Below are positions 9,785 to 20,485 of a DNA stretch of 34,966 nucleotides, one piece after another. Under the pieces are notes generated by a model, which was not told the DNA's origin, ran no database searches, and saw nothing but the letters and a program-made list of their open reading frames with translations. The translations under genes and the position numbers were made by a program. The DNA comes from a virus: positions 1 to 34,966 of the IMG/VR virus record IMGVR_UViG_3300036766_002268. The stretch is one strand, 5' to 3'. Every line of letters starts with the position of its first letter. Positions within the stretch are counted from its first letter, which is position 1.

Positions 9785-9805
9785 AACAACAACAACAACA
9801 ACAAT
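9785..9805. repeat. AAC trinucleotide repeat at start of leftward transcript
   Basis: Six tandem AAC units followed by AAT, read as GTT repeats on the leftward transcript. They begin right after the predicted -10 element (9803-9808), so they would form the first bases of the leader. Changes in copy number by slippage could alter promoter clearance or leader length. No gene overlaps it. Confidence 0.6.
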
Positions 9806-9831
9806 ATCGGTGGAATAATTCAACTTGTCAA
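9803..9831 (-). promoter_or_regulatory. Leftward early promoter
   Basis: Read leftward, the sequence has a perfect -35 TTGACA (9831-9826), a 17-bp spacer (9825-9809) and a -10 GATATT (9808-9803, four of six matches). The spacer contains one arm of the 13-bp inverted repeat, and the second arm lies just upstream of the -35. It would drive the leftward early genes, divergently from the repressor gene, as the Mu early promoter does. Confidence 0.65.
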
Positions 9832-9854
9832 CTAAAAAGTGGAATTATTCCACC
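9809..9854. promoter_or_regulatory. Operator region: 13-bp perfect inverted repeat
   Basis: GGTGGAATAATTC (9809-9821) and GAATTATTCCACC (9842-9854) are exact reverse complements. Each arm is also a near-palindrome on its own: GTGGAATTATTCCAC (9839-9853) is perfect around its central base, and the copy at 9810-9824 has one mismatch. A third, weaker half-site (TGGAATT, 9874-9880) follows. Centres lie 29 and 34 bp apart. This fits cooperative binding by the adjacent HTH repressor over the leftward promoter and its own start. In Mu the equivalent operators also serve as transposition enhancer. Confidence 0.7.
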
Positions 9855-9910
9855 ATTCCGCTTGTTTTTTTGCTGGAATTTAATTTTTTAGGGGTTTTTT
9901 GACCGATAAT

Positions 9911-11340: not shown

Positions 11341-11574
11341 ATGTTGGAACAAGAATTTAAATATTTCGACTCAAACAGGGATCAACTCATTAAGGGGCAT
11401 GAGAATCAATATATTATAATTTATAAGAATAAAGTATTGGGTTATTACGATAATGAAGTTCAAGCAATTAAAGAAACCCTTAAAACTCACGAGCTCGGAA
11501 CTTTCTTTGTAAACAAATGCATCCCAAGAGATCAGGACATTCAGAAATATCATTCCAGAGTAGCCTTTAGTTAA
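11341..11574 (+). CDS. DUF5678-like small protein
   Basis: A 77-residue protein. The segment HENQYIIIYKNKVLGYYDNEVQAI fits the DUF5678-like pattern (a short beta-sheet domain 'kyvaiyknevvg..dd..eA...'). ATG at 11341 follows GAGGA at eight bases; an in-frame TTG 20 codons upstream lies before the promoter and is rejected. Its TAA overlaps by one base the ATG of the retropepsin-like gene, so the two are translationally coupled. Small proteins of this kind are often found just before clan-AA aspartic protease genes in bacteria; the joint role is unknown. Confidence 0.65.
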   Translation: MLEQEFKYFDSNRDQLIKGHENQYIIIYKNKVLGYYDNEVQAIKETLKTHELGTFFVNKCIPRDQDIQKYHSRVAFS

Positions 11575-12128
11575 TGAGCGATCAATCATTTTTACCTCGC
11601 GCCTTTACGGCTCAGGCGGATGGAATATTAAATGTATTAAAAACGGAATTCCATGTCAGCCAGGCTTCTGATATTTCAGGGACAAATCAGGAGATGGTCA
11701 AAGCTTTGGGAATCTGGGATACCGGGGCAACCAATACGGCGATCAGTCAGAAGTTAGCCTCGCAATTATCATTAAAACCAATAAGTCAGGCCAGAGTGGA
11801 TGGAGTTCATGGTCATGAAACTGTAAACGTGTACATGGTTGATATCGTTTTACCAAATCGTGTTTTAATCGGTTCCGTAAAAGTTTCAGAAGCAAAAAAT
11901 CTTTTAGATTGTGATTTACTCATTGGTATGGATCTCATTTGTTTGGGCGATTTTGCGGTGACAAATCATGAGAATAAAACGACCTTAACGTTTAGAATTC
12001 CACCGAATAATAAACATATCGATTTCGTTGAAGAAATCAGCAGAAACAATGAGAATCAAAAAAGTTTCGCAAATAAATACACAGGCGGTCAAGGCGGATC
12101 AAAACGGAAGTCTTCGCGGCGAAAATAA
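11574..12128 (+). CDS. Retropepsin-like aspartic protease
   Basis: A 184-residue protein of the clan AA (retropepsin-like) type. The catalytic-loop signature is IWDTGATNTAIS (D49-T50-G51-A52), and the second half-site hydrophobic-glycine motif is LLIGMDLI (115-122). Single-domain proteases of this size act as dimers. No signal peptide, so probably cytoplasmic; the C-terminus after 150 is polar with a basic tail (SKRKSSRRK). Coupled by TAATG to the DUF5678-like gene. Not part of standard phage morphogenesis; likely cargo or a regulatory/immunity module, as inference. Confidence 0.8.
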   Translation: MSDQSFLPRAFTAQADGILNVLKTEFHVSQASDISGTNQEMVKALGIWDTGATNTAISQKLASQLSLKPISQARVDGVHGHETVNVYMVDIVLPNRVLIGSVKVSEAKNLLDCDLLIGMDLICLGDFAVTNHENKTTLTFRIPPNNKHIDFVEEISRNNENQKSFANKYTGGQGGSKRKSSRRK

Positions 12129-12145: not shown

Positions 12146-12174
12146 TTGACATTATGTCTCTTTGATAATATTTT
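12146..12174 (+). promoter_or_regulatory. Promoter with palindrome over -35, leaderless start
   Basis: TTGACA (12146-12151), 17-bp spacer and TATTTT (12169-12174). A perfect 5-1-5 palindrome GACAT-T-ATGTC (12148-12158) overlaps the -35 and may be an operator. The predicted start of transcription (about 12181) coincides with the GTG start codon of the next gene, which has no ribosome site, so the message would be leaderless. The same CTTGACATT core occurs at 18368. Confidence 0.55.
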
Positions 12175-12180
12175 CTTTTC

Positions 12181-12420
12181 GTGTCACAAGCTCAGCAACT
12201 CACGTTTGACTTCAAAGAATATTTTCGTTTAGACGAAGAACTTTTAACACCGATAGAAATGGCCAGAAAGTTACGCATATCGACAAAGACCCTGGCTCGT
12301 AAGCGTCTTGCCGGAGAGATTGCCTTTGTGGAAATATCGCCTCGCACATTTCGATATCCCAAACAAGACGGCGTTGAATATTTAGAATCACGCTACAGAA
12401 GAAACGATTGGCTCAATTAA
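12181..12420 (+). CDS. Small HTH protein, candidate late activator
   Basis: A 79-residue protein with a helix-turn-helix of the excisionase/MerR-like type at residues about 21-50 (TPIEMARKLRISTKTLARKR) followed by a wing-like VEISPRTFRYPK segment. Start is GTG at 12181; no Shine-Dalgarno sequence precedes it and the predicted promoter places +1 at the GTG. It lies immediately before the first late promoter (12426-12495), where Mu has its late activator C. A role as activator of the late promoters is plausible from position and fold but untested; it could instead be an excisionase-type or repressor protein. Confidence 0.68.
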   Translation: MSQAQQLTFDFKEYFRLDEELLTPIEMARKLRISTKTLARKRLAGEIAFVEISPRTFRYPKQDGVEYLESRYRRNDWLN

Positions 12421-12425
12421 TCTAA

Positions 12426-12495
12426 AGACAAATCGGACAATTCGGACATTTTACCCCACTTAGGCCTTGAGATTTATTTTGATCTATGCTAGTTT
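12426..12495 (+). promoter_or_regulatory. Late promoter 1 with triple 9-bp direct repeats
   Basis: Three tandem 9-bp units of consensus rGACAwwTC/TT run from 12426 to 12452. Then GGCCTTG (12463-12469) leads into the weak -35 TTGAGA (12467-12472), a 17-bp spacer and -10 TAGTTT (12490-12495). A copy at 18650-18719 matches in sequence and in every spacing (15 bp between repeat core and GGCCTTG, 33 bp from there to GGCAT). Weak core elements with conserved upstream repeats point to an activator-dependent promoter. It drives the terminase-portal-head genes. Confidence 0.7.
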
Positions 12496-12500
12496 TCGGC

Positions 12501-12764
12501 ATGGATTTATTCACCAACAAAATAGATATCAATCAACTTCTGACTCTTGTAGTACTCGTTACCGGGGCGGCGCTTTTCTATTTTCGATCACTCAGAGACA
12601 TCTCTATAAAACTGGCCGTTCACGATCTGGAAATCAAGGCTCTGTTTGAATCTTTAAGTTCGAATACCTCAGAGCTAAAAGAAATTACAAAAGAACTACA
12701 CATCATTGCCGTTGAGCTGGCAGGCAAGACCACAATTACCCCAAAGACAAGGAAAAAATTATGA
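12501..12764 (+). CDS. Small membrane protein, lysis or holin candidate
   Basis: An 87-residue protein: short N-terminus, one membrane helix at about residues 12-30 (LLTLVVLVTGAALFYF), then a coiled coil and a basic C-terminus. An in-frame ATG at 12486 lies inside the -10 region of the promoter, so ATG 12501 is the start. It is only five bases after the -10 element, so the message is probably leaderless. It overlaps the next membrane gene by ATGA. Position and topology fit a lysis accessory (holin/antiholin or spanin-like) but no specific family is recognised. Confidence 0.6.
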   Translation: MDLFTNKIDINQLLTLVVLVTGAALFYFRSLRDISIKLAVHDLEIKALFESLSSNTSELKEITKELHIIAVELAGKTTITPKTRKKL

Positions 12765-18649: not shown

Positions 18650-18719
18650 AGACATATCGGACAATTCAGACGCATTGGTTTATAGCGGCCTTGCTATTTT
18701 AAAACCTTTGTGTTATTTT
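18650..18719 (+). promoter_or_regulatory. Late promoter 2 with triple 9-bp direct repeats
   Basis: The same architecture as 12426-12495: three 9-bp units (18650-18676, the 21-bp core matching 19 of 21 bases), GGCCTTG (18687-18693), weak -35 TTGCTA (18691-18696), 17-bp spacer, -10 TATTTT (18714-18719). The ATG of the prohead protease gene lies 15 bases after the -10, with no ribosome site between. It would start the second block of late genes (capsid and tail). Confidence 0.7.
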
Positions 18720-18733
18720 CTGGCATACTATTT

Positions 18734-19987
18734 ATGCCGCAACTACTTAGATATGATCGTGGAGCCATCAAAGCCGTAGAAACCGGAGAAGGTTTTTTAC
18801 GCGCCAAAGTCGTGATGGCCGTGCCTGGCGTTTACCCGTACATGGATGCAGCAGGTTCGGTTAAACTTGAAGCAAAGCTTCCCGATGAATTATCAAACAA
18901 AGTTACCATTGCCACCGCAGATGGAAAACCTGCCACAGACGGGCATCCTCCCAAAAGCGATAATCATGGTTTGGTCGTTTCTGATAATTATCAGAGGTAC
19001 ACAAAAGGCTCTATCACATCGCCTGCCTATGAAAACGGAGAGCTTGTTTCTTACGTAACGGTTTACGATGCCGCTCTTATCAAAGATATTCTGGAAAAAA
19101 GAAAGGTACAAGTTTCGCTTGGCCAATTGATTAAGTTAGATACTACTCCCGGAAATTTTAACGGATATCGGTATGACTCGGCACAACGCAACATTCGAAT
19201 CAATCACCTTGCCTTTGTAGAAGCCGGTCGACTTGGCGACAAAGCAAAAATCATTCTCGATGAAAAAGACTTACCCGAAGGCGCGGCCGTGCGCGTCGAT
19301 AACGCAGAGCTTCTCGAAAACGCAAAAATTAAAAATAATTTTGAAAATAAAAGTGAACCCAATAAAAAGGAGAATAACACAATGGGAGACATCGTCCTCA
19401 AACAAGATTCAGAAGATTACGCTCTGTGGAAATCAATCAAAGGTTTTTTTAAAAAAATCAGCGATCCACGCAATGACGCCGCTGACAAGGGGAAAGTAAC
19501 CTGCCCTGAATGCGGTGCCAAGTTTGCGCCCGATCAACGCAGTGATGCCAGCGATGCAAAATCCGCTGATTTGCAAAAACGTATGGATTCGATGCAAATC
19601 ACCATCGATACGTTGCAGGCTCAAAACACCGCATTTAAAGGCGAGCTTGAAAAAACAAGAAATGATTCTTTAACCGATGCCGCGCTTGGCGAACGAATGA
19701 AACTCATCGACATGGCAAAATCCGTCAGACAAGATTTCAAACATGACGGCCTTTCTAATCGAGATATCAAACTCAGCGTTATATCGACCAATCTTCCTTA
19801 TACGACGGGAACCGATATCGCCAAACTCGATGATGCTCATGTCAACGCTCGTTATGACGCAGCTTGTGAACTCGCCAAAGTAAAAGCCTCTCAGCAACCA
19901 AACTCAGAAACAAGTTTCATGAGAGTCGATGAAGCCGATCTCAAAAAGAAAAAAGAGGAACGCCTGAATCTCCATAAGGTTTCATAA
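18734..19987 (+). CDS. Prohead protease/scaffold fusion, DUF2213 family
   Basis: A 417-residue protein. Residues 1-180 match DUF2213: RAKVVMAVPGVYPY near the start, the ATADGKPATDGHPP segment (60-73), then VQVSLGQLIKLDTTPG and NHLAFVEAGRLGDKA. This is a proposed herpes-type prohead protease. Residues 217-417 are a polar, coiled-coil scaffold-like part with a CPECGAKF knuckle. An internal AAGGAG before M217 allows separate production of the scaffold. The first ATG (18734) has no ribosome site and follows the late promoter; an in-frame TTG further upstream lies inside that promoter. Confidence 0.85.
   Translation: MPQLLRYDRGAIKAVETGEGFLRAKVVMAVPGVYPYMDAAGSVKLEAKLPDELSNKVTIATADGKPATDGHPPKSDNHGLVVSDNYQRYTKGSITSPAYENGELVSYVTVYDAALIKDILEKRKVQVSLGQLIKLDTTPGNFNGYRYDSAQRNIRINHLAFVEAGRLGDKAKIILDEKDLPEGAAVRVDNAELLENAKIKNNFENKSEPNKKENNTMGDIVLKQDSEDYALWKSIKGFFKKISDPRNDAADKGKVTCPECGAKFAPDQRSDASDAKSADLQKRMDSMQITIDTLQAQNTAFKGELEKTRNDSLTDAALGERMKLIDMAKSVRQDFKHDGLSNRDIKLSVISTNLPYTTGTDIAKLDDAHVNARYDAACELAKVKASQQPNSETSFMRVDEADLKKKKEERLNLHKVS
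19382..19987 (+). CDS. Nested in-frame scaffold protein
   Basis: An internal start inside the prohead protease gene. ATG 19382 is in frame and has AAAGGAG nine bases upstream, a far better ribosome site than the gene's own start. The 201-residue product (MGDIVLKQDSEDYALW...) is the coiled-coil part without the protease. In phages such as lambda (C and Nu3) the scaffold is made in just this way from an internal start. Expected in excess over the full-length protease. Confidence 0.68.
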   Translation: MGDIVLKQDSEDYALWKSIKGFFKKISDPRNDAADKGKVTCPECGAKFAPDQRSDASDAKSADLQKRMDSMQITIDTLQAQNTAFKGELEKTRNDSLTDAALGERMKLIDMAKSVRQDFKHDGLSNRDIKLSVISTNLPYTTGTDIAKLDDAHVNARYDAACELAKVKASQQPNSETSFMRVDEADLKKKKEERLNLHKVS

Positions 19988-19996
19988 GGTATAACT

Positions 19997-20485
19997 ATGA
20001 ATTTTAATATTTTTAAAAAAGACGATAAACGTAAACCCATTGCACAAATGAATCCGGCTGAATTGGATAAATTTGTCGCTGAAATGGAAAAGGCTTCTGC
20101 TGAACTCGAAGCAAGTGAAAAAGAACTCAATGAACTGGCAGAGACTTTAACCCAAAAAGAAGAGTCTCTCAAAACTCTTGAAAAAGAATTAACTGAGCGA
20201 TCAAAAAAAATCAGTAACGGAAAAAACAACGAGGCAAGCGAACCTGAAACGAAGAAGAACAAACATTCAGCAGAATTACTGGCTCATGCCAAACTTGCAA
20301 AAGTTGATAAACCGGAAAAATTTTCCGGCAAAGAATTGAAATTAGAAATCATTCAACGGGGTTTCCCGTTCGGCGTTGGAACGGCGACTCATGATCTCAG
20401 TCAAGAGATTTTAGACGCAAGATTTGAAATGGCCGTCGAAGCCCTCGAAGCCCTCGAAGCCCTCGAAGCGCAAGGTAAAAAATAA
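19997..20485 (+). CDS. Coiled-coil head-associated protein
   Basis: A 162-residue acidic protein with a long coiled coil at about residues 24-72 (KASAELEASEKELNELAETL and following), a polar linker, and an alanine/glutamate-rich C-terminus built by a four-fold EAL repeat. A middle segment IIQRGFPFGVGTATHDLSQEILDAR is more ordered. Between scaffold and decoration genes it is probably a minor head or assembly protein. ATG follows AAGG at eight bases. Family not recognised. Confidence 0.65.
   Translation: MNFNIFKKDDKRKPIAQMNPAELDKFVAEMEKASAELEASEKELNELAETLTQKEESLKTLEKELTERSKKISNGKNNEASEPETKKNKHSAELLAHAKLAKVDKPEKFSGKELKLEIIQRGFPFGVGTATHDLSQEILDARFEMAVEALEALEALEAQGKK
20435..20470 (+). repeat. Four 9-bp tandem repeats in coding DNA
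   Basis: Four copies of CTCGAAGCC (first begins G, last ends G) in phase with the reading frame, encoding L-E-A units near the C-terminus of the coiled-coil head protein. The unit length keeps the frame, so copy-number change by slippage would only lengthen or shorten the helix. Confidence 0.75.

Follow-up and report, generated by a model that had tools for sequence, protein, structure and literature searches.

Gene order around the late genes

The window, the whole stretch of DNA that was analysed, is a 34,966-base virus record (IMGVR_UViG_3300036766_002268) from a Mu/B3-like transposable phage. Its minus strand encodes a Gam-like protein, a transposition ATPase and a Mu/B3-like DDE transposase. 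The plus strand then carries a CI-like HTH gene and a second, small HTH gene, and from 12501 to the end it carries genes for terminase, portal, a MuF-like protein, protease, major head protein, tail sheath, tape measure and baseplate. The nearest annotated transposase (28% identity over 98% coverage) is that of a Leptospira weilii plasmid prophage with the same layout as the window. As the first-pass annotation had remarked, no Mor/C-like protein is seen: translation of the window in all six frames gave no match to PF08765 at E ≤ 10.

Three other features of the window are of note. A long imperfect inverted repeat (9794-9869, core GTGGAATTATTCCAC) lies in the gap that separates the CI-like gene from the divergent early operon and is likely the repressor's operator region. 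The gene at 11574-12128, between the regulators and the late genes, has a retropepsin-like aspartyl protease domain (PF13975, E 1.8e-7), which is unusual for a phage; the matching stretch differs between the related contigs L054 and L055 described below. Within a head gene there is a short 9-base in-frame tandem repeat (20432-20467, GCCCTCGAA). An RNA-family search gave no match.

Two predicted late promoters preceded by 9-bp repeats

The first late gene (12501-12764, plus strand, 87 aa) is preceded by an array of four 9-bp frames (12427-12462, plus strand), GACAAATCG GACAATTCG GACATTTTA CCCCACTTA, which can also be read from 12430, in the register of the BldC repeats discussed below, as AAATCGGAC AATTCGGAC ATTTTACCC CACTTAGGC. 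A predicted promoter follows (12467-12495, plus strand), with the -35 element TTGAGA (12467-12472), 17 bp, and the extended -10 element TGc TAGTTT (12490-12495). The second array (18651-18686, plus strand), GACATATCG GACAATTCA GACGCATTG GTTTATAGC, has an orthologous array at position 8794 of L054 and precedes a promoter of the same design (18691-18719, plus strand): TTGCTA (18691-18696), 17 bp, extended -10 TGt TATTTT (18714-18719). The first gene past this promoter encodes the head maturation protease (18734-19987, plus strand; phrog_530, E 1.9e-70). At both sites the four frames lead into GGCC and then into TTGAGA (site 1) or TTGCTA (site 2), and the -10 element is followed by 5 nt and then an A.

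Comparison of 12427-12501 with 18651-18725 bore out the geometry given in the first-pass annotation: a 21-bp core identical at 19 of 21 positions, a 15-bp gap to GGCCTTG that is the remainder of frame three plus frame four, 33 bp from GGCCTTG to the end of GGCAT (28 bp to its start), and a 17-bp spacer before TAGTTT or TATTTT. The three tandem repeats that it described fared less well, for two units are well conserved and the third only in part (GAC...). The arrays get weaker past the second unit; despite the partly conserved third unit, the 9-bp phase spans four frames directly into GGCC. A generic sigma-70 scan did no better on the window than on shuffled sequence and missed both late promoters, as expected from their weak -35 elements. 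Sigma-54 promoters at these sites were considered and rejected, no fitting core being found by eye.

Chance and conservation

Can two such copies arise by chance? The first-pass annotation held that they cannot readily do so. Taken alone, the bare pair is only moderately improbable: a 19/21 pair arises somewhere in about 40% of dinucleotide-shuffled windows and a pair matching at 47 of 80 positions in 8 of 66, while for the given site 47/80 was reached in none of 300 shuffles. It is conservation in relatives that removes chance as an explanation.

The relatives were found in two steps. Scanning IMG/VR with the exact repeat pattern gave L043, which is syntenic with the window (terminase 83% identical) and is the same contig as L054 in the opposite orientation; a terminase profile then gave L055. 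Single-query searches with portal or terminase retrieved no relatives, a terminase profile with distant members retrieved unrelated phages only, and a viral scan with the protease retrieved L054 only. Two queries of bacterial genomes found no prophage, and a loose array-plus-GGCCTTG pattern gave no further member with the full promoter geometry among the matches listed.

Absence of the repeat-plus-core pattern from related phages had been named beforehand as the result that would speak against the proposal; the pattern is present in both L043/L054 and L055. In L043/L054 one site precedes the first late gene and the other the head protease gene, the two positions that they occupy in the window; L055 has the first site, its contig stopping before the second. 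Conservation thus draws on only three phages, with five sites between them, and two of these phages are near-identical in their late genes. In each of the five sites the array keeps its 9-bp phase and runs up to a weak -35 element of the form TTGnnn (TTGAGA, TTGCTA, TTGCAT, TTGAAC and TTGAAA), after which come exactly 17 bp, an extended -10 element TGnTAnnnT, and a conserved A 5-6 nt past the -10 element. A matrix built from the three relative sites alone gave its highest score in the window to position 18651 (56.0 bits) and its second highest to 12427 (40.1 bits), the next match scoring 15.0; with a matrix built from site-1 copies alone, site 2 was the second-best match both in the window and in L054.

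The small HTH gene and its promoter

Between the CI-like gene and the first array lies the gene for a 79-aa winged-HTH protein of HTH_17/MerR-like type (12181-12420, plus strand; HTH_17 match), our candidate for the late activator. The promoter scan placed TTGACA-17-TATTTT before it (12146-12174, plus strand). No array copy occurs at this promoter, so that no autoregulation via the array is visible. The -35 element is overlapped by a palindrome, GACATTATGTC, that is identical in all three phages (window 12148-12158, L054 2141, L055 1858). The CI-like proteins of the relatives have diverged (31-60% identity to that of the window) while the palindrome is unchanged, so that some other ligand may bind it.

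A Shine-Dalgarno-like motif precedes 29 of the 52 genes of the window; the HTH gene, the first late gene and the head protease gene are among those without one. The ATG of the first late gene lies 5-6 nt past the -10 element in the window, L054 and L055 and coincides with the conserved A, so the first late mRNA is probably leaderless, with its ATG as the predicted transcription start (12501). The GTG start of the HTH gene is 6 nt past its -10 element, and on the same reasoning from sequence the HTH mRNA is probably leaderless too. For promoter 2 the predicted start is A18725, with a predicted 9-nt leader to the protease gene.

Likeness of the protein and its putative sites to BldC

With a profile of the three HTH proteins, the best PDB matches were the BldC-DNA complexes 6ama and 6amk (E 7.6e-6 and 9.9e-6), and mycobacteriophage Xis (4j2n) came after them. 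The predicted structure of the HTH protein (mean pLDDT 82.8) matches the folds of Xis 4j2n, BldC and RdfS, with Foldseek E-values of only 0.01-0.05 over about 50 residues. Like BldC of Streptomyces it is a small MerR-like winged-HTH protein, and it shares the family trait of having neither a coiled-coil dimerisation domain nor an effector domain. None of the three proteins passed the NCBIfam BldC model NF033787 (cut-off 77 bits; window 13.1, L054 22.9, L055 24.3 bits), and we therefore file the protein as BldC-like, outside the curated BldC subfamily.

The DNA sites are alike as well. Each BldC protomer binds 9 bp, in direct repeats arranged head to tail (for instance AATTNNNNC), with the consensus AATTXXXX(C), that is, an AT-rich block plus a C-G pair (PMC5859096). 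Direct repeats of this type are present before the first late gene as AAATCGGAC AATTCGGAC (12430-12447); position 9 is C in 15 of 20 units, and the BldC unit at smeA-ssfA, AATTCGGTC, differs from the window unit AATTCGGAC by one base (PMC5859096). In BldC, Arg30 reads the C-G pair and Lys26 makes flexible contacts to the variable bases (PMC5859096). Arg30 corresponds to R40 here, which is invariant, and BldC Arg48 to R58; the position of Lys26 is filled by K in the window and L054 and by M in L055, the phage with altered variable bases.

Joint exchange of the HTH gene and the array

Starting in the promoter spacer, L054 and L055 share 98.9% identity across 4.4 kb of late genes, and they share 98% identity in a 52-bp block that covers the HTH promoter. 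Between these two blocks both the HTH gene and the array have been replaced. The two HTH proteins share only 36% of their amino acids, and the L055 array reads AATAAATCG AACAATTCA where L054 has the GACAAATCG type (in the BldC register, AAATCGAAC AATTCAAAC against the AAATCGGAC type). The window sides with L054 in both respects: its HTH protein is closer to that of L054 (61% identity, and 10 of the 12 residues near the recognition helix alike), and the array likewise follows the L054 type. This joint replacement indicates that protein and site travel as a unit, as regulator and operator do. The gene upstream of the HTH promoter differs as well, which means that the exchange involved at least two segments.

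A candidate late switch

The late genes of this Mu-like phage appear to be switched on by a BldC-like protein acting on 9-base repeats at two promoters, a mode of control that would differ in kind from that of Mu itself and be common to the window and its two relatives. We think it probable that the two sites are the late promoters of a transposable phage without Mor/C, turned on by the BldC-like HTH protein bound to the arrays. That the product of 12181-12420 is the likely ligand of the repeats, as the first-pass annotation had proposed, is suggested by the BldC-DNA matches, the fold match and the co-exchange with the array. Protomers of this product would line up head to tail on the 9-bp direct repeats, each on one unit, presumably as a cooperative filament. 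If +1 is the conserved A of each site (12501 and 18725), the array spans about -74 to -39 and abuts the -35 element; lying upstream of the -35 and leaving the core promoter uncovered, it has the position expected of an activator. The bound protein would help the host sigma-70-type RNA polymerase to use a weak -35 plus an extended -10. Switch-on at 12501 would yield the packaging and head genes, and at 18734 the protease, head and tail genes. The predicted order runs from lysogeny control by the repressor to the HTH protein and on to both late promoters, its first and last steps being those that we infer. The geometry and the relatives thus lend support to the earlier picture of paired promoters with a 9-bp activator-type array beside RNA polymerase, activation as such being the predicted part.

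Does the HTH protein activate or repress? BldC-family proteins are able to repress as well as to activate. The same protein on the same arrays could hold the late promoters silent in the prophage; the extended -10 might work unaided, and the co-exchange of HTH gene and array fits this just as well. We consider repression unlikely, however, given that the array lies upstream of the -35 rather than over the core promoter, that the -35 elements are weak, and that a phage lacking Mor/C would then be left with no known late activator.

Another view is that a host regulator or some other phage protein occupies the arrays, the neighbouring HTH protein being an unrelated regulator or an excisionase-like factor. 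Arrays of 9-bp repeats of the TCGGACA type are found in dozens of unrelated phage contigs, a number of them between divergent genes about 0.6-1 kb before a terminase-like ORF of about 600 aa, and a search of 14 records with such arrays found no BldC-like gene; the array is thus not unique to the HTH protein. The joint replacement of HTH gene and array in otherwise unchanged surroundings nevertheless makes this view quite unlikely, since a host factor would not require it. That the sites are non-regulatory, either duplicated recombination or packaging sites or chance similarities, is very improbable: the L054/L055 identity break does fall at the array and the pair by itself is only moderately improbable, but both copies lie exactly at -35/-10 distance before gene starts and the promoter elements are conserved in all five copies. 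A recombination site in particular was considered and rejected.

Some of the arrays in unrelated contigs deserve mention. Those of the form GACAwwTCGGACAwwTC in L006, L008, L028, L037, L039, L046, L048 and L051 lie about 0.55-0.95 kb before the terminase-like ORF of about 600 aa, and in several other contigs such arrays directly follow a CRP-like TGTGA-N6-TCACA site; these are possibly host regulator sites. L029 (2574-3073, minus strand), another phage fragment, repeats the order of the window: its small HTH_17-like gene is followed by a GACAAATCGGACAAATCGGAC array and this by a gene start; its HTH_17-like protein match is weak (E 0.005).

Comparison with known regulators

The activation proposed here by a BldC-like protein has a counterpart in Mor/C of phage Mu, which likewise serve as middle/late activators in a transposable phage and bind beside late promoters; they belong to another protein family, and their operators differ from the direct 9-bp repeats found here. 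The P-boxes of pyocins are short tandem repeats, and we regard the PrtN/P-box system as the closest functional parallel, by analogy. PrtN is a small activator, released by a repressor, that acts on pyocin phage-tail-like late genes via a conserved promoter element (PMC8609362). The P-box sequence, however, differs from that of the window arrays, and the Pfam pyocin-activator (PrtN) domain found no match at E ≤ 1, so PrtN membership was rejected; there was one weak tblastn match (E 3e-3) to a protein of phage VSN-002 annotated as PrtN. RdfS, a recombination directionality factor of Xis/RdfS type, forms head-to-tail oligomers and also activates promoters (PMC11963761). Such factors have the same fold as the HTH product, whereas here no tyrosine integrase context is seen, a DDE transposase being present instead, and the sites are at promoters and not att sites. 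The excisionase model TIGR01764 (cut-off 28.8) was not passed, the scores being 16.6-23.7 bits.

The first-pass annotation had suggested a new late-activation system. It is not wholly new, in that protein and site resemble the described BldC kind (PMC5859096); the novelty lies in the use to which they appear to be put, the late control of a transposable phage. BldC is a bacterial developmental regulator, whereas the protein here is phage-encoded and placed to control late promoters. A binding mode described for bacterial development would thereby be moved into phage late control. Mor/C have been treated as a marker of transposable phages; the present case offers a concrete candidate replacement, in which the protein, its predicted binding site and two target promoters are defined and nature has supplied an exchange experiment.

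The transposable prophages of Leptospira resemble the window in that the replication module lies opposite to the regulatory genes and Mor/C are absent; the passages on Mor/C in that report call the absence surprising and name no replacement (PMC8705779). The equivalent place in L. weilii NZ_CP092208, ahead of the late genes, is taken by an HTH_17 gene, but no TCGGACA array was seen before those late genes. It is conceivable, though we put it forward only tentatively, that BldC-type direct-repeat activators generally replace Mor/C in phages without it, the Leptospira group included, and that HTH gene and array are exchanged as a module that resets late-control specificity. In an L. weilii transposable prophage (L265:14800-15300) imperfect AGAACnTTCy repeats, spaced at about 10-13 bp, come after an HTH_17 gene that lies before the late genes; they could be the late operator of that prophage.
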